Positions 268 to 26,860 of a stretch of DNA of 33,326 nt are shown in pieces (positions within the stretch are counted from its first letter, which is position 1; the number at the start of each line of letters is the position of its first letter). The notes under the pieces were generated by a model. It was given only the letters and a program-made list of their open reading frames with translations, was not told where the DNA came from and did no database searches. A program made the translations under genes and the position numbers. Source of the DNA: an uncultured Bacteroidota bacterium (GTDB lineage: Bacteria; Bacteroidota; Bacteroidia; Chitinophagales; Chitinophagaceae); the NCBI GenBank assembly GCA_903916555.1, contig CAIWXG010000039.1, positions 1 to 33,326 of the forward strand, written 5' to 3'.

Positions 268-2988
268 CTATTTCATCTTCACTAATTTCTTTACAAGTTC
301 CCCACCTTCGCCCTTGAACGTAACATAATATAGCCCTGTAGCTAAATTACTGATGTTTACTTTGGTAGTTGCAGTTGTTAGGGTTTGGTGCAGTTGTTCT
401 TGCCCCATAATATTGCTTATTGTAAAGGTTGTAAAAGCAGTTGGGTCTGTTTTTATTATCAGTTCATCGGTGGCAGGGTTGGGGTATAGCTCTGCCTGGG
501 CTGTTGGGGCTTTAGCGGTATTTAGTGTACCGCAACCAACAGTGTTGGCAATATAATTGGTCATTACTACCGGGTTGTCGTCAAAGAAGATGCCTGCATG
601 GTTACTGATAGTTGTACCTGCACTTAAACCACTGTTGGTATTGATTGTAAAGAGTACCATACCATCGCAGAAGCCGTGGTGGCTACTGTCTAACAGGTTG
701 ATACCCGGGAAATCAAATTTAATGATGTTATGATGAATGCTTGTATCATACCACCTGCTGGTGTTCATGGTGTGCGATGCAGCTACAATTCGTATGGAGT
801 GGGAAGCTAAATTATCACTTAGTGTATCCATAACATATATGTTATGTGCAGTATCGTTACCCGTATTCTCGAATAGTATAGAGTATTGCAAATTAGTAAC
901 TGTACTTGCAGGTATGCAACCACTTGGCAACACCGCAATTTCATTAGGGTCGAAAGAAGATTTTACAGTATCTACCCGGTTTATATGGTTATTGGTGCTG
1001 TCATAATCGCCAATAGTAGGTGTTATTACCGCATTACTCATTATGGTATCCCCGGGTAGGAGCCATGCTCCCGGCACTTCAAGATGCACATACATTAATT
1101 GTGGTGAGTTAATATAAGAAAGAGAACTCATATCCCAAGTAACAGTATTGCCAATAACAGATGTTGGGGTAGGTACTCCATAACTAAAATGATAGTTTGG
1201 GCTAAAATTGAAACTTAAAGCAGATATTTCGGGAGTACAAAAAGTATTGCCTGTAATTAAATTGATTACTTGTTGATGCCTGCCGGTACGAGTACAAGCA
1301 TTTACCCATAAATTAAAATTGGCAACCGTATCGCAATTAACAGCAAAATACTTGGTTGTCTCTGTTCCAATAAACAATGTATCGAAAATAACAGATGTAG
1401 ATGGGCAAGTAACATGCGTACCGGTAGTTGTATTCAAAACTCTAAAAGAATAGATATCTCCCGGATTACCATAAGCTACATAACTAAAGCCGGAAGTAGA
1501 TGAAACTGTATCAACTGCAATTCCATTAGAATCAATTTCTGTTAAAGCGCTCAGTCCAAAAAAGTTTTCTGAACTATCTTTTACACAATCCCCATTAACG
1601 TCAAAATAGAATTTAATATTAAAATTTTGACAAGGGGTGAAATTGTGGGAGTAAGTAATGCTGTCTATAGCTACAGAACCATTATACAATACATGTTTTA
1701 TAGTATAAGTACCTGAAGATGAATAATTCTCTGTAAAAAATGCAAGTCCGGTGCTACCATAAGCACTGGTTAAGGTATCTAAATGTTGCCCATTACCAAA
1801 ATAGGTAATAAAATGTTGCCCGGCAGAATAGTGATTGGTACTCATATTGAAATTAATTCCAGAACACATGTTAGCAATATTAACCGAAAAACTATCAGCA
1901 ATTGCAACAGAAATATCTAAATCAACTCTTCGGATACGGTTATTATTCAAATCAGCAATGTGGATATGATTAATATGGTCTATAACAACACCGGAAGGAC
2001 TACTTAACTCTGCCGCAGTTGCATTGCCTCCATCACCACTAAATCCTGCAATACCATTACCGGCAATTGTGCTAATTATCCCACTATAATTTACTTTACG
2101 AATACGGTTGTTATATTCGTCAGCAATATAAACATTCCCCAATGCATCAGTTGTTATACCTATTGGGTTATTAAATCTTGCAGCAGTTGCCGGACCTCCA
2201 TCTCCGATATAACCGCCACCTACAATCCCAGCAAAAGTACTGATGATACCACTACTATTTATTTTACGAATGCATTGATAACTAGCATCGGTAATAAATA
2301 TATTTCCAATTCTATCAATTGCAATACCTGCAAGTGGACCTAATTCTGCTGCCGTTGCCGGACCTCCATCTCCACTATAACCAGGAGTTCCATTACCTGC
2401 AATTGTAGTAATTATCCCGCTACTATTTACTTTGCGAATCACTCCGAAATCTGCAATATAAAGATTCCCACTTCCATCAAATGCTAAACCTTGAGGTTGA
2501 TTTAAAGTCGCGGCTGTTGCCTGTCCGCCATCTCCACTGTAACCAGTTGTCCCATTACCTGCAAATGTGCTAATGAAACCAGTATGGTTTACGATGCGAA
2601 TTACAGCATTGGTGATGTCAGCAATATAAACATTTCCGAATCCATCAACGGCTATACCAACGGGTAGATTTAGTTCAGCAGATACTGCAAGTCCACCGTC
2701 ACCACTATACCCTGCTGTTCCATTACCTGCAAAAGTACTAATTACGCCACTGCTATTAATTTTACGAATAATATTATTATATGCATCAGCAATATACATA
2801 TTACCACTACTATCAAATGCTGCTGCTACTGGTTGGTTTAAACTTGCAGCTGTTGCCGAACCGCCATCACCGGAGTAACCAGATGTACCATTACCGGCTA
2901 TAGTATTAATTATTCCTAATTGTGCTTGTGCATAAAAACCACTAAACAAGTTGCAAAATAACAGAACTAAAGAAGCGATATTTTTCAT
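268..2988 (-). CDS. Secreted NHL-repeat propeller protein with T9SS sorting domain
   Basis: This 906-residue protein begins with a signal peptide ending near AQAQ (about residue 23). Six repeats of about 56 residues follow (about 24-360), each with a GYSGDGG-like motif, an NxPxG turn, a GN(V/L)YIAD strand and an IRKVN strand. Six such repeats make one complete NHL beta-propeller. The middle (about 370-690) has Cys-containing Ig/SdrD-like segments. A DPNE..PSGC...FENTGND segment (about 695-825) resembles the DUF7619/DUF11-type conserved domain. The last ~75 residues (LYPNPATDELII...GLYYVTFKGEG) are a type A T9SS C-terminal signal, so the protein should cross the outer membrane and be surface-attached or released. 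NHL propellers usually bind proteins or sugars; the ligand here is unknown. The near-identical repeats are recombination-prone at DNA level. Confidence 0.9.
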   Translation of the reverse strand: MKNIASLVLLFCNLFSGFYAQAQLGIINTIAGNGTSGYSGDGGSATAASLNQPVAAAFDSSGNMYIADAYNNIIRKINSSGVISTFAGNGTAGYSGDGGLAVSAELNLPVGIAVDGFGNVYIADITNAVIRIVNHTGFISTFAGNGTTGYSGDGGQATAATLNQPQGLAFDGSGNLYIADFGVIRKVNSSGIITTIAGNGTPGYSGDGGPATAAELGPLAGIAIDRIGNIFITDASYQCIRKINSSGIISTFAGIVGGGYIGDGGPATAARFNNPIGITTDALGNVYIADEYNNRIRKVNYSGIISTIAGNGIAGFSGDGGNATAAELSSPSGVVIDHINHIHIADLNNNRIRRVDLDISVAIADSFSVNIANMCSGINFNMSTNHYSAGQHFITYFGNGQHLDTLTSAYGSTGLAFFTENYSSSGTYTIKHVLYNGSVAIDSITYSHNFTPCQNFNIKFYFDVNGDCVKDSSENFFGLSALTEIDSNGIAVDTVSSTSGFSYVAYGNPGDIYSFRVLNTTTGTHVTCPSTSVIFDTLFIGTETTKYFAVNCDTVANFNLWVNACTRTGRHQQVINLITGNTFCTPEISALSFNFSPNYHFSYGVPTPTSVIGNTVTWDMSSLSYINSPQLMYVHLEVPGAWLLPGDTIMSNAVITPTIGDYDSTNNHINRVDTVKSSFDPNEIAVLPSGCIPASTVTNLQYSILFENTGNDTAHNIYVMDTLSDNLASHSIRIVAASHTMNTSRWYDTSIHHNIIKFDFPGINLLDSSHHGFCDGMVLFTINTNSGLSAGTTISNHAGIFFDDNPVVMTNYIANTVGCGTLNTAKAPTAQAELYPNPATDELIIKTDPTAFTTFTISNIMGQEQLHQTLTTATTKVNISNLATGLYYVTFKGEGGELVKKLVKMK

Positions 2989-8918: not shown

Positions 8919-8954
8919 TTTTACGATTACATACTTTCATTCAATATTTTTTAT

Positions 8955-9014
8955 ATACAAATAAAATAAGGTTACTTTACTTAAAGAAGTTTAGTAACCT
9001 TATTTTATTTGTAT
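8955..9014 (+). terminator. Perfect 22-bp stem-loop terminator after scpB
   Basis: Bases 8955-8976 pair without mismatch with 8993-9014. The 16-base loop holds a further ACTT/AAGT pairing at 8979-8990. A T-rich run follows at 9022-9031. The stem is AT-rich apart from the GGTTACT core and would work in both directions, isolating scpB from the kinase gene downstream. Confidence 0.8.
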
Positions 9015-9053
9015 AATCTATTGTTTTTTTTAATAAATATTATGCCGATAGTT

Positions 9054-9061
9054 TAATTTTG
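9054..9061 (+). promoter_or_regulatory. Candidate -7 element for the kinase gene
   Basis: TAATTTTG matches TAnnTTTG and ends 16 bases before the ATG at 9078. No -33 TTG is seen at the expected spacing; the nearest TTG (9021-9023) is 30 bases away. Confidence 0.4.
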
Positions 9062-9077
9062 TAGAAGAAATAAAACA

Positions 9078-11027
9078 ATGACTGTAACAGGTATTAACAA
9101 CGAAAAATATGAAATAGGCAACGAAATAGGGCGTGGTGGGGAAGGTATTGTATTTGATGTTATTAATAAAAATAATATTGTATTTAAAAAATATATAGAA
9201 CGGCTTAGTACTACTAAAATAGACAAACTATGTTATATGGTGTCTATAAAAAATGCAGTATTAGAGGCTTATTCCGCATGGCCAATTGATGTTGTTAGGG
9301 ATGAAACAGGAGTACCTTGTGGTTTTATAATGAAAAAACTAAAGGCGTTTGTTCCTCTACATGTCATCTTTAGCCCAATGGACCGAAAAAAATATTTTCC
9401 GGATAAGGGATATAATTTTTTGGTTCATGTGGCTCGAAATTTGTCAACTGCATTTTATCAGCTACACGAAGCCGGTGTAATAGCAGGGGATGTAAATGAA
9501 GGTAATATTTTAATAAATACAAATGGGCTTGTATCATTTATTGACTGTGATTCTTTTCAGATAAAAGACACAAAAAATAATTATTTTTTATGCGAAGTTG
9601 GCGTACCAAGATATACACCGCCAGAATTATTAGAACAAGAGTCGTTTACACAAATTATACGAACCGTAAATACAGATAGTTTCTCTTTAAGTGTATTAAT
9701 TTTTCAATTACTGTTTTTAGGTAGGCATCCTTTTGCCGGTAAAAACAATACACAACATGATATAGATGAGGAAACAGCAATAAGACAACATGAATTTGCT
9801 TATTCGCTCGAAAAAAAGAAAAAAAAACTATTGCCACCCAATAATAGTTTACCCATTACAAGTTTGCCTGCAACAGTAGTCGATTTGTTTCACAGAGCAT
9901 TTGAGCAAGAAACAAGACCCGATGCCGCAGAGTGGGTTAAGGCATTAGACAGCTTACTGGCAGAAATGACAACATGTACAATTTCAAGAATACACTCCTA
10001 TCCTGCACAATTAGATAGTTGCCCTTGGTGCGATTTTAAAGCTAAACAAGGCATACTCTTCTTTATAGACAATAGTTATTTGCATACACAAAATGCGCTG
10101 CATGATATTGAAAGTTTTGTACAGGGTTTTGTTGTTGAAAAAATGTTGTTGAAAAAATGGAATGAAACTTTTAGTTACCCTGATATAAAACCAAATATCA
10201 TTCATAAAAAACTACAGCAATCAGCCCTTTTAAAGAAATGGATGGAGCCCATTTTAATAGTTTTGGTAGAATTGCTGCTTTTCTTTTGCTTTCAAACAAA
10301 TTATTTTTTTCTATTTACTATTGTTTTTGGTGCAATTGTTTATTGGGGTCGCAAATATTTCCCATGGCGACAACTATTAATTATAGAACAGGAACGAAGG
10401 AAACAAGAATTGAAACAATTTAAAGAAAGACTATATCAATCTATTAATAGTTATAATCAATCGCAGGATGTTTTAAATTATGAAAAACAGCTAAGTAGTT
10501 TTCAAGAGTATATAACAGCATTTAAAAGCTTACCGGATACTTATATTAAATTAAAGAATACAAAGGAGGAATCTATTTATAATGAACAATTGGCTACCTA
10601 TCTTAAACTATTTGCAATAAACGACTATACAATACCAACTATAGGCTCCGTTAAGAAAACAACCCTTTCTAATTTCGGTATTCAAAATGCTGCAGATATA
10701 TATAAGTTAAGTACCACTAAAATACCTACTATCGGGCCAAAAAATATACAAACATTATTAAGTTGGCAAAGGCAAATGGGTTCCGGCTTTGTTTATATAC
10801 CCGATGCTTACAGAATAGCAATAGGAATGCAGGATGTAGATAAAGAAATAAATAGAATAAAAGCAGATTTAGAAATGAATATAAGAAATGAATATAAATC
10901 GTTGAGTTATTTTAAAGCTACAATTTCTAATCGTTCTACAATTCTGGAAATTCAGATACGGGATTTAGGAAGAAGAGCCTATCAAGCTGAAATTGATTGT
11001 ACTGCTTTTGAAAAAATTGCAGCATAA
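9078..11027 (+). CDS. Membrane-anchored Ser/Thr kinase-like protein with helix-hairpin-helix tail
   Basis: The N-terminal ~295 residues form a eukaryotic-like kinase: glycine loop IGRGGEGIV (17-25), ATP lysine K37/K38, catalytic loop GDVNEGN (D138, N143), DCD (156-158) in place of DFG, and YTPPE (179-183) as the APE equivalent. A CPWC pair (316-319) follows. Residues 391-425 are hydrophobic enough for one or two membrane passes; 430-510 look coiled-coil; two PTIG helix-hairpin-helix units (about 518-566) resemble DNA-binding HhH. This layout resembles the YegI/TerY-P-type kinases, usually encoded beside a PP2C phosphatase and a VWA protein. Neither is adjacent here. Since GDVNEGN replaces HRDxxxxN, activity is likely but unproven. 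Substrate unknown. Confidence 0.82.
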   Translation: MTVTGINNEKYEIGNEIGRGGEGIVFDVINKNNIVFKKYIERLSTTKIDKLCYMVSIKNAVLEAYSAWPIDVVRDETGVPCGFIMKKLKAFVPLHVIFSPMDRKKYFPDKGYNFLVHVARNLSTAFYQLHEAGVIAGDVNEGNILINTNGLVSFIDCDSFQIKDTKNNYFLCEVGVPRYTPPELLEQESFTQIIRTVNTDSFSLSVLIFQLLFLGRHPFAGKNNTQHDIDEETAIRQHEFAYSLEKKKKKLLPPNNSLPITSLPATVVDLFHRAFEQETRPDAAEWVKALDSLLAEMTTCTISRIHSYPAQLDSCPWCDFKAKQGILFFIDNSYLHTQNALHDIESFVQGFVVEKMLLKKWNETFSYPDIKPNIIHKKLQQSALLKKWMEPILIVLVELLLFFCFQTNYFFLFTIVFGAIVYWGRKYFPWRQLLIIEQERRKQELKQFKERLYQSINSYNQSQDVLNYEKQLSSFQEYITAFKSLPDTYIKLKNTKEESIYNEQLATYLKLFAINDYTIPTIGSVKKTTLSNFGIQNAADIYKLSTTKIPTIGPKNIQTLLSWQRQMGSGFVYIPDAYRIAIGMQDVDKEINRIKADLEMNIRNEYKSLSYFKATISNRSTILEIQIRDLGRRAYQAEIDCTAFEKIAA

Positions 11028-11042
11028 AAAATCAGAAAGGCA

Positions 11043-11240
11043 TCACTTTAATTTGCCGGCATTTTTTAATTTCTCAATTATTTTTTCGATAGGTGTTTTT
11101 TCTTCTTTTTTTCTTATCTCTAACATTAGTTCGTATAATAGATTTTCTATTTGAACATAGTTTTCTTCTAATGTTAAAAGTTCCAATACGATAGCTTTTT
11201 TTTCGTTGTGTTCGTCGGCAATATAGCTTACTCCTTTCAT
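11043..11240 (-). CDS. Small antitoxin-like protein without a toxin partner
   Basis: The 65-residue protein has an N-terminal strand pattern (KGVSYIADEHNEKKAIVLEL), then helices with many Glu/Lys, ending in IEKIIEKLKNAGKLK. I do not recognise it surely; it resembles short Bacteroidota antitoxin-like proteins found ahead of RelE/ParE toxins. Here the space downstream holds only the convergent end of the kinase gene 15 bases away, so no toxin follows. A good promoter (11270-11299) supports that it is a real expressed gene. It may be an orphan antitoxin or a regulator. Confidence 0.55.
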   Translation of the reverse strand: MKGVSYIADEHNEKKAIVLELLTLEENYVQIENLLYELMLEIRKKEEKTPIEKIIEKLKNAGKLK

Positions 11241-11575
11241 GTAAATTGTTTATAATTCTGAATTTTTTGCAAATGTATTAAAATGAAATCACTATACAAT
11301 ATTTTAGCTTTTATTTAACATTTATATTGTACAATAGATGGGTGTATTCACAATTTTTTGTTAACAATAATAGGTATTGGTGTATCTTAGTCAAAATTTA
11401 TCATTTCACCCGTACCAATATTGCTGAAAATAAGATTATACTAATAAATAATCATTTTTTTTTGGTAAAATTTAATCATATTTGTACTTTAAAAAACCTG
11501 TCGTCATACAATAATGGAATTTATTGTTTACTTTCAATTTTTAAATAGCTATAAAATACATTTAAAATAGCATAT
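11241..11575. other. Divergent intergenic region with promoter and inverted repeat
   Basis: The 335 bases separate the small antitoxin-like gene from the GH20 gene. They hold the minus-strand promoter at 11270-11299 and an inverted repeat TACAATAT (11295-11302) / ATATTGTA (11324-11331). An open frame at 11327-11548 (+) has unnatural-looking, AT-driven composition and is not called. Confidence 0.5.
11270..11299 (-). promoter_or_regulatory. Full Bacteroidota-type promoter for the antitoxin-like gene
   Basis: On the minus strand it reads TTG (11297-11299), 19 bases, then TACATTTG (11270-11277), matching both the -33 and -7 elements with normal spacing. Transcription would start near 11264, giving a leader of about 24 nt. 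The inverted repeat at 11295-11331 overlaps the -33 element and could be an operator. Confidence 0.55.
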
Positions 11576-13462
11576 ATGAAACACGCAAAATATATTTTTT
11601 TAATTCTGTTTTTTTTTAATTGCATAAGTGTAAATGCACAAAGTTACGACCCCTATATTGGTATTATTCCGGCTCCGGTATCTGTAAAGCAAAATACAGG
11701 TGTATTTAAGTTAACACCCGAAACATTTATACTCGTTGATGCACCGGATGACAAAGCGGTATTATTTTTTAAAGAATATATAAAAAAGGCAGGGTACGGC
11801 AATGGTTTTACCGACATTTCTAATATTGACAAAAAAACAGGACTGACAAATTCAATAAAAATTTTAACAAATTTCAAATCTACTATACCAAATGATGGAT
11901 ATGAGTTGACTGTTACCGAAAATCAAATTACACTTAGTGGCAAAGGTGCCGGTCTTTTTTACGGAATCCAAACACTTATACAACTAATGGATAGCAAAAA
12001 AGCAGGTTATGCAACCTTGCAATGTGCTATAATTAAAGATAATCCTCGTTTTGCATACAGAGGTATGCACCTTGATGTAGCCCGACATTTTTTTGATGTA
12101 AATTTTATTAAGAAATATCTTGATGTAATGGCAGCCTACAAGCTCAATTATTTTCATTGGCACTTAACCGACGACCAAGGGTGGCGAATAGAAATAAAAA
12201 AATACCCAAAACTAACAGAAATTGGCAGCAAAAGAGCCCAAACTAAAGTTGGAAACGCTATTGGTAATGACTCTGATTTATATGATAATATCCCATATAG
12301 TGGTTTTTATACGCAAGAAGAAATTAAAGATATTGTAGAATATGCTGATAAGAGATATATTACTATAGTACCCGAGATTGAAATGCCCGGGCATTCTTTA
12401 GCAGCAATAGCATCTTACCCCGAAATGAGTTGCCACCCAAATATACCCTATAAAGTTGGTGAAAACTGGGGGGTTACCACAGATGTGCTTTGCCCCAATG
12501 ATGCTACTTATAGAATATTACAAGATGTACTTTCTGAAATTGTGGGTTTATTTCCGGGCAAGTATGTACATATTGGTGGCGATGAGTGCCCTAAGGATGC
12601 TTGGAGAGCATCTGAATTTTGTCAGCAATTGATTAGAGACCAAAGATTAAGAGATGAAAACGGATTGCAAAGTTATTTTATACAGCAAATACAAAAATAT
12701 CTAAATGCACGAAGCAGAACTATAATAGGGTGGGATGAAATTTTAGAGGGTGGTTTGGCATCTAATGCAGTAGTTATGAGCTGGCGAGGCGAGGCTGGTG
12801 GAATTGCCGCTGCACAATTAAACCATGATGTAATAATGACACCTAATAGTGGAGGTTTGTATTTTGACCATTCCCAGTCAAAATCTCAACAAGAGCCATT
12901 ATCAATTGGCGGCTACTCACCATTATGGAAAATATACAATTACGACCCTGTACCCACTGCATTAAATGCAGAGCAACAAAAACATGTTATAGGTGTACAA
13001 GCAAATTTGTGGACAGAATATATTGCAACAAATGCAAAAGCAGAATATATGCTGTTACCTAGAATGTTGGCACTTGCAGAAATAGCCTGGTCTCCTAAAG
13101 CAAACAAAGATTACATAAATTTTTCGGAGCAAAGGGTAGCAAGACATTTACCCCGTTTAGATGCACAAGGATATGATTACCGAGTGCCGGAAGCAATTGG
13201 TGCTGATGACACTACTTTATATGGAGAAACGTTTAAAGTTGTACTTAAAGAACCAGTGCAAGGAGCTAAAATTTATTATACAATTGATGGTTATACACCT
13301 CGCGAAACAGATTTCTTATATACAAAACCTATTACTATTGCTGTACCAAAAAAGAAAAGAATTGACCTGCAAACAATTACAATAACAACTACAGGCAAAA
13401 GAAGTAACGTTACACATACTTATCTTGAAAATGGAGTTGTGCCGGATTTTGGTGATAAATAA
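11576..13462 (+). CDS. Secreted beta-N-acetylhexosaminidase (GH20)
   Basis: The enzyme removes terminal beta-linked GlcNAc/GalNAc from chitin oligomers or glycans by substrate-assisted catalysis. A signal peptide ends at NAQ (1-22). A GH20b N-terminal domain (about 27-155) precedes the catalytic barrel (about 158-500), which carries YRGMHLDVARHF, NYFHWHLTDDQGWRIEI (191-207), VPEIEMPGHS (265-274) and the catalytic pair D336-E337 in HIGGDECPKDAW. A small C-terminal CHB_HEX_C-like domain (about 545-625) has the IYYTIDGYTPRE motif. The length, 628, is usual for Bacteroidota. It is 44 bases ahead of ligA on the same strand; a shared transcript is possible but functionally unlinked. Confidence 0.94.
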   Translation: MKHAKYIFLILFFFNCISVNAQSYDPYIGIIPAPVSVKQNTGVFKLTPETFILVDAPDDKAVLFFKEYIKKAGYGNGFTDISNIDKKTGLTNSIKILTNFKSTIPNDGYELTVTENQITLSGKGAGLFYGIQTLIQLMDSKKAGYATLQCAIIKDNPRFAYRGMHLDVARHFFDVNFIKKYLDVMAAYKLNYFHWHLTDDQGWRIEIKKYPKLTEIGSKRAQTKVGNAIGNDSDLYDNIPYSGFYTQEEIKDIVEYADKRYITIVPEIEMPGHSLAAIASYPEMSCHPNIPYKVGENWGVTTDVLCPNDATYRILQDVLSEIVGLFPGKYVHIGGDECPKDAWRASEFCQQLIRDQRLRDENGLQSYFIQQIQKYLNARSRTIIGWDEILEGGLASNAVVMSWRGEAGGIAAAQLNHDVIMTPNSGGLYFDHSQSKSQQEPLSIGGYSPLWKIYNYDPVPTALNAEQQKHVIGVQANLWTEYIATNAKAEYMLLPRMLALAEIAWSPKANKDYINFSEQRVARHLPRLDAQGYDYRVPEAIGADDTTLYGETFKVVLKEPVQGAKIYYTIDGYTPRETDFLYTKPITIAVPKKKRIDLQTITITTTGKRSNVTHTYLENGVVPDFGDK

Positions 13463-13506
13463 AGGTTTCAGTTTTTTATAACTTTAATAATTTATTTCTA
13501 TTTGCG

Positions 13507-15603
13507 ATGTATAATACTATAAACGAAAAACGACTTTATGAACTTGCAAAAAAATTATTGCAAAAAGAGGTTTTAGATGTACAAATAGCTGTAAACCAGT
13601 TGCGTGAAGTAATTAATTATGCCGATTGGAAATACTATGTGCAGAGTGAGTCGGTAATTGCCGATTTTGAATATGATGTTTTATTGAAGCTACTAAAAGA
13701 GCTAGAAGAAAAACGCCCCGATTTACTTAGCCCCGATTCCCCTACTCAGCGAATTTCAGCAGGGTTAAGCGAGCGTTTTCCAGCTGTAAGCCATTTAGTA
13801 CCCATGCTTAGTTTAGATAATACTTATAATGCAGACGACCTAAATGACTGGGACAAAAGATGCCGCGAGTTTATTGATGAAACAGAAGTAATAGAATATT
13901 GTGTAGAACCTAAATATGATGGTGCAAGTATTTCGTTGATATACGATAATGGTTTATTGTTGCGCGGTGCCACAAGAGGCGATGGAGTTATGGGCGAAGA
14001 GGTAACCTTAAACATACGACAGATAATGTCTGTTCCTCTTTCTGCCGATTTTATAAAACAAGGTATAAACCAGATTGAAATAAGAGGCGAAATTGTTATA
14101 CATAAAGACAAATTTGAGGCTTTTAATAAACAACGTATTTCCGAAGGGCTTGCTCCTTTGGCAAATCCTCGCAATGCCGCATCGGGTACGCTAAGAATGT
14201 TAGACCCTGCCGAAGTGCGTAAAAGAGGTTTAAGTGCTTTGCTGTATCATGTAAGTTTTTATTCAGTTACGGCAAATAAAGAAAAACCATACCAATTAAA
14301 TACGCACTACGATACACTGCAATGGCTATATACTTTAGGATTTCCAACTCCTGCAAAGGAAATGAAAGTTTTTAAACATATAAATGAAGTAATAGCGTAT
14401 TGTCATGAATTTGAACAGCATAGGGACGAGTTACCATTTGAAGTTGATGGGCTTGTAATAAAGGTAAATAATATTGCTATGCAAGAAAAAATGGGCATGA
14501 CAACCCATCATCCCCGTTGGGCTGTGGCATATAAATTTAAAGCCAGGCAAGCCACAAGCAAATTATTAAAAGTAGAATTTCAGGTAGGACGCACAGGTGC
14601 AATCACCCCTGTTGCTAAAATAACCCCTGTGCCGATAGGCGGTGTTACTGTTTCTTCTATATCTTTATTTAATGAAGATGTGGTGAGAGAAAAAGATGTA
14701 AGAATAGGCGATACCGTTTTGGTGGAAAGAGCAGGCGATGTAATACCTTATATTGTAAAACCATTAATAGAATTACGAACAGGTGAAGAAGAAGAAATAA
14801 AATTTCCTGTAAATTGCCCTGCTTGTAATGGCTTACTTGAAAAACAGCCCGATGAAGCAGCTTGGCGTTGTATAAATAGGAGTTGCCCGGTACAAGTAAT
14901 AGAAAAACTAATACACTTTGCAAGTAAAGACGCAATGGATATTAGAAATATGGGAACTGCTAATGTACAGAAATTCTTTGATTTAGAATTACTTAAAGAT
15001 ATACCGGGCATCTATACAATTGATTGGGATAAGATAAAGATGATGGGTGGTTTTGGTGAAAAATCGGTTACTAACTTGCAGCAAGCAATAGAAAACTCTA
15101 AAAAACAGCCGTTAAACAGAGTAATTTATGGTTTAGGCATTCGGTATGTAGGCGAAAATACATCTAAAATATTAGCTTCTGCCGTAGCAAATATTCGAGA
15201 ACTCTATGATTGGGATATTGAAAAATTAACTACTCTTGGCGATGTTGGTCCTAAAGTAGCCACATCGGTTGCAGACTTTTTTAGCCGTATAGAAAACCGT
15301 AATACAATTGATTTGCTAGAAGCTGCCGGAGTAAATATGATTAATGAGCATAAATCGCAACCAAAAACCGAAGGTGCATTAAATGGCAAGTCTTTTTTGT
15401 TTACAGGCACATTGGCAAAACTAAAAAGAAGTAATGCAGAAGCAATGGTTGAAGAAAAAGGCGGAACGATATTAGGTGGAGTAAGCAGTAAATTAAATTA
15501 TTTAGTAGTTGGTACTGATGCGGGGTCTAAATTAGAAAAAGCTAAGAAATTAGGAACAGTAAATATTTTAACGGAAGATGAGTTTTCAGAACTAATTCAA
15601 TAA
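13507..15603 (+). CDS. ligA: NAD-dependent DNA ligase
   Basis: LigA seals nicks in DNA during replication and repair, using NAD as adenylate donor. The 698-residue protein has the Ia domain at the N-terminus, the adenylation motif EPKYDGAS (K136 is the lysine that is adenylated), RGDGVMGEEVT, an OB fold (VGRTGAITPVAKI), a four-cysteine zinc finger (CPAC...C...CP, about 440-462), a helix-hairpin-helix domain (about 475-600) and a C-terminal BRCT domain (about 620-698, GKSFLFTGTLAKLKR). All domains are intact and the length is normal. It is convergent with the BatD-like fragment, 15 bases between stops. Confidence 0.96.
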   Translation: MYNTINEKRLYELAKKLLQKEVLDVQIAVNQLREVINYADWKYYVQSESVIADFEYDVLLKLLKELEEKRPDLLSPDSPTQRISAGLSERFPAVSHLVPMLSLDNTYNADDLNDWDKRCREFIDETEVIEYCVEPKYDGASISLIYDNGLLLRGATRGDGVMGEEVTLNIRQIMSVPLSADFIKQGINQIEIRGEIVIHKDKFEAFNKQRISEGLAPLANPRNAASGTLRMLDPAEVRKRGLSALLYHVSFYSVTANKEKPYQLNTHYDTLQWLYTLGFPTPAKEMKVFKHINEVIAYCHEFEQHRDELPFEVDGLVIKVNNIAMQEKMGMTTHHPRWAVAYKFKARQATSKLLKVEFQVGRTGAITPVAKITPVPIGGVTVSSISLFNEDVVREKDVRIGDTVLVERAGDVIPYIVKPLIELRTGEEEEIKFPVNCPACNGLLEKQPDEAAWRCINRSCPVQVIEKLIHFASKDAMDIRNMGTANVQKFFDLELLKDIPGIYTIDWDKIKMMGGFGEKSVTNLQQAIENSKKQPLNRVIYGLGIRYVGENTSKILASAVANIRELYDWDIEKLTTLGDVGPKVATSVADFFSRIENRNTIDLLEAAGVNMINEHKSQPKTEGALNGKSFLFTGTLAKLKRSNAEAMVEEKGGTILGGVSSKLNYLVVGTDAGSKLEKAKKLGTVNILTEDEFSELIQ

Positions 15604-15618
15604 TAACGGTGTTGCTTT

Positions 15619-16077
15619 TCATCTCACAAAATTATAATTGCAATATTTCTGTGATAAAATATGTAATTTAGATTTTGATAATGTACCGGAAACAACCTGA
15701 ATATTTATGGGGTTTGATTGATAAATAATACCATCAGCATCTTTGGCTACAGCAGGCAAAATGATAAATGAACCTTCGTGCTTAGGACGCAAAATGTATG
15801 TAAGAGATACATTGTGCGAATTAATTGTCTTATCTCCTATCGTAGCAGAATGGAAGCTTTGAGACTGAAACGGACCTTGCACAACAATAAAATCGTTACT
15901 TATAGCAGGTGTAATACTTATTAATTTATGGACATCTGTTACCGTATAATCAAGTTGAAATTCGTCATCCAAACCTAATTTAGTTGTAGAAGGTGTAACC
16001 GTAAAAACAACATTTTGAGCTAAGATATCGCAATGGATAGTACATAACAACAAATAAATTAAGCCAAAGCGCCACAT
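15619..16077 (-). CDS. BatD-like N-terminal domain protein (possibly truncated)
   Basis: A signal peptide (about 1-20, ending DILAQ) is followed by an Ig-like domain with FTVTPSTTKLGLDDEFQLDYTV, an FIVVQGPFQSQSF segment and a TYILRPKHEGSFIILPAVA strand pair. This is the pattern of the first domain of BatD, the periplasmic partner of BatA/B in the aerotolerance-type operon. Full BatD proteins are roughly 550-600 residues with a C-terminal membrane segment; this one stops at 152, right next to ligA. The last ~20 residues (KSKLHILSQKYCNYNFVR) lack the family pattern. It is probably a 3'-truncated remnant, or a stand-alone single-domain paralogue. Confidence 0.6.
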   Translation of the reverse strand: MWRFGLIYLLLCTIHCDILAQNVVFTVTPSTTKLGLDDEFQLDYTVTDVHKLISITPAISNDFIVVQGPFQSQSFHSATIGDKTINSHNVSLTYILRPKHEGSFIILPAVAKDADGIIYQSNPINIQVVSGTLSKSKLHILSQKYCNYNFVR

Positions 16078-16601
16078 ACTTTTTCTATAATTTTAGATAC
16101 ATACAAAAGTATAAGTAAATAAGATTAGAGAAAAAAACGGAGGTTAAATCTGCGTTAAAAAGCCTTCTTGATATTCACATTTAACAGGTTGCAAAATACG
16201 AAATCAAGTTTTTAACCGAAATACCTGTATTGTCAATGGTTTAGGAAGATAAAGAGGTGAAAAAAGTAATAATTAGGTAACAAGTTTTACATATACAGAC
16301 CTAAATTGTTGCAAATTTTGTTTGGGTGGGAAGCAGTTAGTTTTTGTTATTCCTTTTTACATGGCAGTATTTCAAAGAAGTACGAATTAAATCTAATAAA
16401 TTTCGTGCTGTTATAAGAGAAATAAAGTTTTAATAACTCTTTTGTTTTTTTAGTTGAAAAAATAGCCTTTTGGGGTAGTGCTGCCTTGTAATTATTATTT
16501 TCACATAAAACAAGCAAATTCAAGTCCGTAAGTGTTTTGGATAAAAGAAAGAGCATAAAATTAAATATTTTATATTTGGCAAAACAGGCTACTAAAAATA
16601 A
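16078..16601. other. Intergenic region without a convincing gene
   Basis: The 524 bases contain no recognised gene, RNA or clear repeat. A 69-codon minus-strand frame at 16347-16556 has no family resemblance I can see. A TATATTTG element at 16571-16578 near the right end probably belongs to the Rpn-family gene. Confidence 0.5.
16571..16578 (+). promoter_or_regulatory. Candidate -7 element for the Rpn-family gene
   Basis: TATATTTG matches TAnnTTTG, 23 bases before the ATG at 16602 and 59 before the alternative ATG at 16638. No TTG at the expected -33 spacing. Confidence 0.4.
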
Positions 16602-17546
16602 ATGCCTAAATTTGCAAAAGATACAAATAAACGGATAATGGCAAAATATATAGACATCTTTACAGATTATGGGTTTAAGAAGATTTTTGGGGAAGAGGCA
16701 AATAAGAATTTCCTTATTGATTTTCTTAATTCCTTATTGCCTGATGCACCTATTAAAGACTTAACTTTTAAGAACACAGAGCAATTACCCGTAACACTCA
16801 TTGAACGTAAAGCGGTTTATGATATCTATTGCGAAAATGAACTAGGTGAAAAATTTATTGTAGAGCTACAAAAAGCCAAGCAGAATTATTTTATGGAGCG
16901 CACCATATATTATTCTACATTCCCTATTAGTGGGCAGGCACTAAAGGGTGAGTGGGACTATAACCTGAAAGCCGTTTATTGTATTGGTATATTGGATTTT
17001 AAATTTAGTCCCGATAACTATCGGGATACAAATGAAGGGGAAATGGGCGAAGTTGTACATACACATACCCTAAAAAACCAAAATAATAGGCAGGTATATG
17101 ACAAGCTAACCTATATTTATTTAGAAATGCCCAATTTCTGTAAAGAGGAGCATGAGTTGAAAACCCGTCTTGACCAATGGCTTTTCTTTATCAAAAACCT
17201 TGAAACTTTTACAGTGATACCGGAAATATTTAAAAATGATGGTGTATTTATAGAGGCTATAGAAAAAGCAGAACTATCAAAGATGAGCGAGGAGGCGCAG
17301 GCAATCTATTTTGCAGGGCTGAAAGCCTACCGCGACAATTACTCAATTATGAAAACCGCAATGAGTGAAGGTATGGAAAAAGGCATTGAAAAAGGCGAAG
17401 CAAACAAAGAAAAATATGCAGAAGAAAAAGCGAAGGCAAAACAGTTGGAAATGGCAAAAAACTGCCTAAAAAATGGTTTGAGCATAGAAATGACAGTAAA
17501 ACTAACTGGTCTTACCGAGGATGAAATTAAGGATATTGCTATATAA
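16602..17546 (+). CDS. Rpn-family recombination-promoting nuclease (PD-(D/E)XK)
   Basis: The protein belongs to the Rpn/PF12784 group, DNA nucleases once called putative transposases and linked to RecA-independent recombination. The N-terminal signature KYIDIFTDYGFKKIFGEEAN and the nuclease core YDIYCENELGEKFIVELQKAK (D and E-x-Q of the PD-(D/E)XK fold) are clear. The C-terminal ~70 residues are a Lys/Glu-rich helix (EGMEKGIEKGEANKEKYAEE) followed by a small helical unit (NGLSIEMTVKLTGLTEDEI), as usual. Most relatives start at MAKYIDIF, so the true start may be 16638 (residue 13), although the upstream ATG is also open. Such genes are commonly multicopy and sit in isolation, as here. Confidence 0.88.
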   Translation: MPKFAKDTNKRIMAKYIDIFTDYGFKKIFGEEANKNFLIDFLNSLLPDAPIKDLTFKNTEQLPVTLIERKAVYDIYCENELGEKFIVELQKAKQNYFMERTIYYSTFPISGQALKGEWDYNLKAVYCIGILDFKFSPDNYRDTNEGEMGEVVHTHTLKNQNNRQVYDKLTYIYLEMPNFCKEEHELKTRLDQWLFFIKNLETFTVIPEIFKNDGVFIEAIEKAELSKMSEEAQAIYFAGLKAYRDNYSIMKTAMSEGMEKGIEKGEANKEKYAEEKAKAKQLEMAKNCLKNGLSIEMTVKLTGLTEDEIKDIAI

Positions 17547-18505: not shown

Positions 18506-19033
18506 TCAATCTATTTTTAAATGTTGTTTTAAAATAAGAAACGTTTGTTCGCTAAACCCATATAATTCTTTTAAATCATTAATGTTTTTAAACTTGCCTT
18601 TTGTATTTCTTCTTAAAATTATTTTAGATGCAATTGCCGGTCCTATTCCTTTTAAGCGTACTAAAGTAGCCGAATCGGCAGTATTTATACCAATGATAGC
18701 AGGCATTGGTAACGGATTATCATCAAATGCATCTTCATAATCATTTTTATTCTCTGTAATTTCTTCCTCCGGTTTCCGGTAGGTTTCATTTTTTTTGAAA
18801 GCCGCCCATGCTATGCGTAATTTACTTTCTTTATCTGTTTCTAATTTTGGGTGCACCCAAATAGATATACTTAATCTAACCACAATTAATATAAATAGTA
18901 TTGTGCATAAAACAATTAATCCCATACGTTCGCTACGAGTAAAGTTTATGTATGATTTTACTATTTGTGATAATTGTTTCAATATGTTTTGGTTGTACCT
19001 TATTGTGCAAGCCAGTATTTTCTTAATAACCAT
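18506..19033 (-). CDS. ComEA-type helix-hairpin-helix protein
   Basis: The 175-residue protein has one membrane segment (about 38-60, GLIVLCTILFILIVVRL), an acidic linker and a C-terminal HhH domain GINTADSATLVRLKGIGPAIASKI (about 114-137) plus FKNINDLKELYGFS. This is the ComEA/KOG-like DNA-binding fold, used in DNA uptake or as a general DNA-binding module. Only the C-terminal module is diagnostic. The called ATG lies inside the upstream VWA-like gene (34-base overlap, different frame). A later start at M37 would remove the overlap and start right before the membrane segment. Confidence 0.8.
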   Translation of the reverse strand: MVIKKILACTIRYNQNILKQLSQIVKSYINFTRSERMGLIVLCTILFILIVVRLSISIWVHPKLETDKESKLRIAWAAFKKNETYRKPEEEITENKNDYEDAFDDNPLPMPAIIGINTADSATLVRLKGIGPAIASKIILRRNTKGKFKNINDLKELYGFSEQTFLILKQHLKID

Positions 19034-26337: not shown

Positions 26338-26664
26338 TTACGGAATATCTTTCAAAAGTAATTGAATTTCTATGTCTGAAATATTTTCCTTTTCATTTTT
26401 ATCAAATATAGTTAGCAGATAAACAGCATCTTCAGTGATTTTAAAACAAGTAATAACTCTTGCACCTCCCGATTTACCTTTGCCTTTTGAGGCAATGGCT
26501 AAACGAATTTTAAAACAATTGTTGCCGAGCCCGATACCTTGCATTGGATTTTGTTTTAATCCATTAACCATTTCAATATATTCATTTTTTAGCGACTGGT
26601 ACTTTTTCACTAAATGTTTTAATTCTTTTTCGAATTTAGGGATTGATATTACTTTATAGCTCAT
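26338..26664 (-). CDS. RelE/ParE-superfamily toxin
   Basis: The 108-residue protein fits the RelE/ParE/HigB fold: YKVISIPKFEKELKHLVKKY at the start, the central IRLAIASKGKGKSGGARVI strand with basic residues, then YLLTIFDKNEKENIS near the end. The KGKSGGARVI...IFDKxExENI pattern is common to toxins that cleave ribosome-bound mRNA. Its start overlaps the end of the upstream small gene by 11 bases, giving translational coupling. It lies between repeat copies A and B. It could instead be a decayed relative, but all expected strands are present. Confidence 0.85.
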   Translation of the reverse strand: MSYKVISIPKFEKELKHLVKKYQSLKNEYIEMVNGLKQNPMQGIGLGNNCFKIRLAIASKGKGKSGGARVITCFKITEDAVYLLTIFDKNEKENISDIEIQLLLKDIP

Positions 26665-26860
26665 TAAATAAATCTTCGGCGTTACGACCTTTTAATTTCC
26701 CTACATTTATTAATTTCATTTCCTCAACTGCTTCTTTTATATCTTCTAAAACCTTTGCTTTATAATCGCTGAGGGGTTTAGCTTTTACAAAAGAGAAATT
26801 TTTTAGTAATTCAATAAAAAAGTCGGCTTTACTATCTTTTACATCCAATAATATTTTCAT
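26654..26860 (-). CDS. Antitoxin of the RelE/ParE-type pair
   Basis: The 68-residue protein (MKILLDVKDSKADFFIELLK at the start, KGRNAEDLFNEL at the end) precedes and overlaps the toxin gene. It is acidic in the middle (VLEDIKEAVEEMKL), the part expected to wrap the toxin, and has an N-terminal strand-helix unit that could dimerise and bind DNA. The role is inferred mainly from gene order, size and coupling; the sequence resembles short Bacteroidota antitoxins. The pair has its own candidate promoter upstream (26890-26897). Confidence 0.75.
   Translation of the reverse strand: MKILLDVKDSKADFFIELLKNFSFVKAKPLSDYKAKVLEDIKEAVEEMKLINVGKLKGRNAEDLFNEL

Follow-up and report, generated by a model that had tools for sequence, protein, structure and literature searches.

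We consider it probable that the YegI-type Ser/Thr protein kinase encoded in the 33,326-nucleotide stretch of DNA analyzed here (the window) belongs to a split trio: its YegL-like VWA and PphC-like PP2C partners would be encoded elsewhere in the genome, and the VWA–PP2C pair is probably missing from the draft assembly. The kinase had been taken for an orphan in an earlier, sequence-only reading of the window. We favor a split trio over a true orphan because nearly all relatives of the kinase keep all three genes. The protein itself is an ordinary member of an already known family, that of YegI, and it is the arrangement of its genes that is instructive.

The window kinase is a full-length YegI homolog

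A BLASTP comparison of the window kinase with Escherichia coli YegI gave 29% identity over 655 aligned positions (residues 7–642, 7e-91). The two proteins are of nearly the same length (649 and 648 aa, respectively), and an alignment of 11 homologs revealed the same domain order in both. We use the name YegI because the homology is near full-length and extends beyond the kinase domain alone. The Pfam Pkinase family (PF00069) matched residues 11–247. The anticipated combination of a kinase containing GDVNEGN (residues 137–143) with CPWC (residues 315–318), a membrane region and two PTIG hairpins was recovered in full, and a helical-looking region is present where a coiled coil had been proposed (Table 1). 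Structure predictions of the kinase (pLDDT 32) and of the helix-hairpin-helix (HhH) tail alone (pLDDT 37) were too poor and were set aside.

The closest relative, 91% identical, is the kinase of a sister species (G002), whose record was the only one found in a scan of genome contigs. Between the two genes, dN is 0.044 and dS is 0.419 (dN/dS ~0.11); the open reading frame is real and under purifying selection. Conservation is highest in the kinase domain and the HhH tail (94–95% identity). Identity falls to 72% in the membrane segment and to 82% in the helical linker, the faster-evolving parts.

Table 1 Features of the kinase gene and its immediate flanks in the window
Feature	Positions	Strand	Basis
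Inverted repeat between scpB and the kinase gene, 29-nt arms, 4-nt loop	8954..9015	.	One copy within the window; absent from G002
TAATTTTG, matching the Bacteroidota −7 element TAnnTTTG, ~17 bp before the start codon	9054..9061	+	Sequence; conserved in G002
YegI-type Ser/Thr protein kinase, 649 aa	9078..11027	+	Intact ORF; BLASTP to E. coli YegI; dN/dS
Kinase domain, residues ~11–290	9108..9947	+	Pfam PF00069, 1e-13; residues aligned in 11 homologs
C-x5-H-x8-C-x2-C, residues 300–318, putative metal knuckle	9975..10031	+	11/11 homologs; plasmid homologs
Two hydrophobic helices, residues 389–405 and 408–424, likely membrane hairpin	10242..10349	+	Hydropathy; fast-evolving
Helical, coiled-coil-like linker, residues ~430–510	10365..10607	+	Sequence pattern
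Tandem helix-hairpin-helix tail, residues ~517–566	10626..10775	+	PTIG pattern; weak profile matches; conserved across phyla
Convergent ORF, 65 aa, no significant family match	11043..11240	-	Purifying selection

Kinase and partner genes co-occur across the family

We searched 299 genomes of the family (Chitinophagaceae) for the kinase and for its presumed partners. YegI-type kinases were found in 29 genomes. YegL-type VWA genes were likewise present in 29, namely 28 kinase-bearing genomes and one further genome (79% complete) that carries the VWA gene only, and PphC-type PP2C genes were present in 28, all of them kinase-bearing. Outside the window's own assembly, which lacks both partners, every kinase-bearing genome (28/28) encodes both. 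The co-occurrence of kinase and partners is highly significant (Fisher's exact test, ~1e-37), a value that is overstated because the genomes are related. The proposal that related kinases form a triad with PP2C and VWA proteins is borne out.

The three genes are contiguous or at most ~1 kb apart in 23 of these 28 genomes, including that of a species of the same genus (G001). In the remaining five, one member is unlinked and all three are kept: the kinase gene is alone and the VWA–PP2C pair lies elsewhere in the genome in G002, G003, G228 and G290, and PP2C and kinase genes are together with the VWA gene elsewhere in G117. In G290, a genome rated 100% complete, the kinase gene and the pair are far from the ends of their contigs (222 and 421 kb), so that the split is no assembly effect. 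The sister species G002 has a lone kinase gene at the locus equivalent to that of the window, and its VWA–PP2C pair is on another contig. An intact triad at this locus in close relatives had been named as evidence that would reduce the arrangement to a recent loss; the triad is indeed intact in the same-genus species and in many other genera, but the corresponding locus of the sister species also holds the kinase gene by itself.

The kinase tree and the tree of VWA plus PP2C agree in the relevant clades where these are resolved (G001 with G003, G247 with G194, and G032 with G029). In both trees, the intact trio of G001 is sister to the split trio of G003, and the near-contiguous trios of G247 and G194 group together. 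Intact trios fall within groups of split ones, a pattern most simply explained by several breakages that occurred independently. That the YegI trios of this family were broken repeatedly, in some four to five events that detached differing members and always left all three genes in the genome, is a proposal we regard as evenly balanced; the number of events is approximate, and deep branches of the trees are poorly supported.

Extra sequence is found between the PP2C and kinase genes in G247 (~1 kb, L045:7881-8873) and in G194 (~0.3 kb, L046:9853-10174), possibly representing early stages of separation. In G290, the split kinase and the split VWA–PP2C pair each have an NHL-repeat protein gene nearby (L041:12952-14292 and L042:9622-12309, respectively), and the window carries a related gene (268-2988, minus strand) ~6 kb from the kinase gene. 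Such genes could mark recombination points at which the trio was split, or their proximity could be due to chance, since they are often multicopy.

A phylum-wide sample of 396 genomes contained three distant species with a full-length relative of the kinase, each with a VWA gene ~0.8 kb away. In a fourth species of this sample, from another family of the phylum, a 427-aa frame (G632:C7:375277-376221) matches only profile positions 18–324, covering the kinase and metal-motif half, and lacks the transmembrane helices and the HhH tail; it is possibly a minimal YegI relative. A scan of viral contigs revealed no relative of the kinase, and phage records gave two weak matches to the kinase domain.

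The VWA–PP2C pair is missing from the window's own assembly

As the earlier description of a gene that stands alone implied, no PP2C or VWA gene adjoins the kinase gene of the window; in the sister species, the partners are nevertheless present elsewhere in the genome. The search for both partners that had been suggested as a check returned neither a YegL-type VWA nor a PphC-type PP2C anywhere in the window's own assembly (G000), a draft of 494 contigs rated 99% complete, and found both in the sister species and in 27 other genomes. Three VWA matches in G000 were rejected as YegL-type proteins: two are long, BatA/BatB-like proteins with transmembrane helices at both ends, and the third (340 aa) is marginal to the YegL profile and was therefore set aside.

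To locate where the pair would be expected, we used the 4.7-kb contig of the sister species that carries it; the next genes on this contig are peroxidase-like and ATP-grasp-like (both named by sequence reading). The right flank of the pair is present in G000 at 90% identity, on a contig (G000:C79) whose first base lies inside the peroxidase-like gene, ~0.3 kb beyond the position at which the PP2C gene would end. On the other side, the HEAT-like gene next to the VWA gene of the sister species matches the end of G000:C172 (87%), but this contig diverges before the expected VWA start, and the left flank is not collinear with that of the sister species.

A true orphan would imply that the species lost both the VWA and the PP2C gene and that the kinase acts alone or with an unrelated phosphatase. 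The failure to match either partner in a 99%-complete assembly and the rearranged left flank of the pair site are in line with such a loss. Against it stand the retention of both partners in all other kinase-bearing genomes of the family, including a sister species whose kinase is 91% identical, the contig break at the very place expected for the pair, and a catalytic domain that has evolved without relaxation (dN 0.027 relative to G002). We therefore consider a true orphan unlikely. A piece that failed to assemble is considerably likelier than loss of the pair, mainly because 28/28 other genomes retain it, and the VWA–PP2C pair is probably present in the organism from which the window derives. 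The term orphan does not hold for this family, in which even the five genomes with one unlinked member carry all three genes and the sole exception to joint retention is the fragmented draft itself.

The catalytic residues are conserved

The window kinase contains a glycine-rich loop (GRGGEG), Lys37, Asp138 and Asn143 in the catalytic loop, Asp156, and PPE at the position of the APE motif. Two canonical motifs are altered: AGDVNEGN replaces HRDxxxxN, and DCD replaces DFG. The glycine-rich loop, the catalytic Lys37 and Asp138, and the metal-binding Asp156 are invariant in 11/11 homologs. Asn143 is kept in 10/11, the exception being E. coli YegI, which has a serine at this position and whose catalytic loop reads GDVNQNS as opposed to GDVNEGN in the window kinase. 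The core catalytic residues, whose loss in an alignment had been named as a refuting finding, are thus kept.

Given the altered HRD and DFG motifs, the protein might be a pseudokinase or scaffold that binds without catalysis. For a Yersinia protein, PMC12599244 lists a pseudokinase family called Yegi1, and the title of a reference cited in PMC13232886 describes E. coli YegI as 'lacking conserved motifs'. This reading is nonetheless highly improbable in view of the invariant lysine and aspartates, the near-invariant Asn143, the autophosphorylation reported for E. coli YegI (PMC13232886) and the retention of an antagonistic phosphatase alongside the kinase.

The flanks of the kinase gene do not recur in the other genera examined

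Homology to the sister species spans positions 9024 to 16245 of the window and thus starts past the inverted repeat that separates scpB from the kinase gene. The kinase gene therefore travels with its downstream flank and without scpB, and the repeat probably represents the end of the upstream unit. Its arms (8954–8982 and 8987–9015) are 93% complementary. It had been described as a 22-bp terminator, which fits neither the length of its arms nor its composition, as the repeat falls outside the G+C-rich terminator pattern. The Bacteroidota −7 promoter consensus is TAnnTTTG; the matching octamer upstream of the kinase start is not accompanied by an identifiable −33 element.

The convergent ORF downstream of the kinase gene had been called antitoxin-like. 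We rejected this label because the family searches gave the ORF no significant match, whether to antitoxins or to other proteins, and no toxin gene adjoins it. That the kinase forms a functional unit with a current neighbor, be it the upstream scpB or the downstream 65-aa ORF, is hardly credible: the ORF still adjoins the kinase gene in the sister species (97% identity), but it is convergent and was not found near the kinase gene in the other neighborhoods examined beyond G002, the upstream neighbor differs in the sister species, and none of the window's neighboring genes recurs beside the kinase gene in the other genera examined.

Further along, the window encodes a PD-(D/E)XK nuclease family transposase (Rpn-like; 16602-17546, plus strand; PF12784, 3e-59) and a protein of 175 aa (18506-19033, minus strand) that combines a hydrophobic segment with an HHH_3 motif at its C terminus (1.2e-15), a ComEA-like layout. 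The toxin–antitoxin-like pair of the window is located at 26338-26860 (minus strand) and consists of a RelE-family toxin (PF06296, 6.6e-10) and a 68-aa upstream partner ORF.

A Cys/His motif, a probable membrane hairpin and an HhH-like tail

The CPWC pair, singled out in the sequence-only reading, is not a lone pair and forms the second half of a larger motif, C300-x5-H306-x8-C315-x2-C318. All four Cys/His positions are invariant among the 11 homologs, including E. coli YegI, with one Pro-to-Ile change inside the motif. The motif is also kept in plasmid-borne relatives from alpha- and betaproteobacteria and from Deinococcus, where the second spacer is one residue shorter. We interpret the motif as a putative metal knuckle.

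Two putative membrane helices follow, separated by a couple of residues. Such a short loop would leave no room for an extracytoplasmic sensor domain, and the tail would lie on one side of the membrane together with the kinase domain, presumably the cytoplasmic side. While hydrophobic segments are present where a membrane region had been proposed, the idea of a membrane sensor is weakened accordingly.

The HhH match of the tail of the window protein is itself below the cut-off. The homologous tail of E. coli YegI matches HHH_5 at 9.3e-4, under the curated cut-off, and the best PDB profile matches of the tail are to the HhH regions of Rev1 and Hel308, which are weak (E 0.016–0.16). A Sphingomonas homolog has an additional C4 zinc finger of the topoisomerase type C-terminal to the HhH region, which favors nucleic acid as the ligand of the tail.

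Comparison to known kinase–phosphatase–VWA systems

The closest counterpart is the YegI–PphC(YegK)–YegL system of E. coli K-12. It shares with the window protein the kinase domain, the C-H-C-C motif, two putative transmembrane helices, a helical region and HhH-like motifs, and its partner families are those kept in relatives of the window kinase. In E. coli, yegI, pphC and yegL form one locus, whereas the window kinase gene is unlinked. For E. coli YegI, a Ser/Thr kinase bound to the membrane, autophosphorylation and dephosphorylation by PphC have been reported, and no condition that induces it is known (PMC13232886).

Related kinases from plasmids of Rhizobium, Sinorhizobium, Cupriavidus, Sphingomonas and Deinococcus resemble the window kinase in having the C-H-C-C motif and an HhH-like tail, at 28–31% identity. 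In contrast to the window kinase, they are encoded in contiguous trios, mostly on conjugative plasmids; the order VWA–PP2C–kinase was observed in 6/6 plasmid relatives (these five and Sphingobium). The Sphingomonadales kinases carry the additional topoisomerase C4 zinc finger after the HhH region, and the Deinococcus kinase, unlike that of the window, has no transmembrane helices. On the Sphingomonas and Sphingobium conjugative plasmids (L048 and L049), the complete trio is preceded by a gene for an ATP-binding protein.

The protein classes of the YegI trio, VWA, PP2C and Ser/Thr kinase, are also those of the TerY-P triads found in tellurite-resistance and defense islands and in CoCoNuT systems. 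In CoCoNuT TerY-P, a zinc ribbon comes after the kinase (PMC11090510), which is comparable to the C-H-C-C motif of the window kinase. Protection against T7-like phages has been reported for one TerY-P system (PMC7699616). TerY-P kinases are described with a terminal zinc ribbon or OB fold, whereas the window kinase has membrane helices and an HhH tail. There are no defense or tellurite genes beside it. We rejected assignment to a defense-type TerY-P triad on the basis of the HhH-like tail and the lack of such neighbors, and membership in a defense system because the PADLOC matches are to generic kinase domains only. By analogy, the window kinase may still work in a TerY-P-like way.

Discussion

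By analogy with the E. coli system, the window protein is most likely an inner-membrane Ser/Thr kinase whose action is reversed by a PP2C phosphatase, with a VWA protein as third component. A two-helix hairpin would hold it at the inner membrane, with both its kinase domain and its HhH tail in the cytoplasm. The kinase would phosphorylate itself and probably other proteins as well, the PP2C partner would reverse these phosphorylations, and the VWA protein may assemble or gate the kinase–PP2C pair. Input might come through the Cys/His site and the HhH tail, by sensing of a metal, nucleic acid or a partner protein. The HhH tail, together with the topoisomerase-type zinc finger of the Sphingomonadales homologs, points to nucleic acid as a candidate ligand, and the shared C-H-C-C motif connects the YegI trio to TerY-P, for which metal sensing has been proposed.

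The natural split trios provide independent support for the three proteins acting together. If the trios were repeatedly broken and yet kept, they would represent a single signaling unit that works without linkage in an operon, and the HhH tail may tie this unit to DNA.
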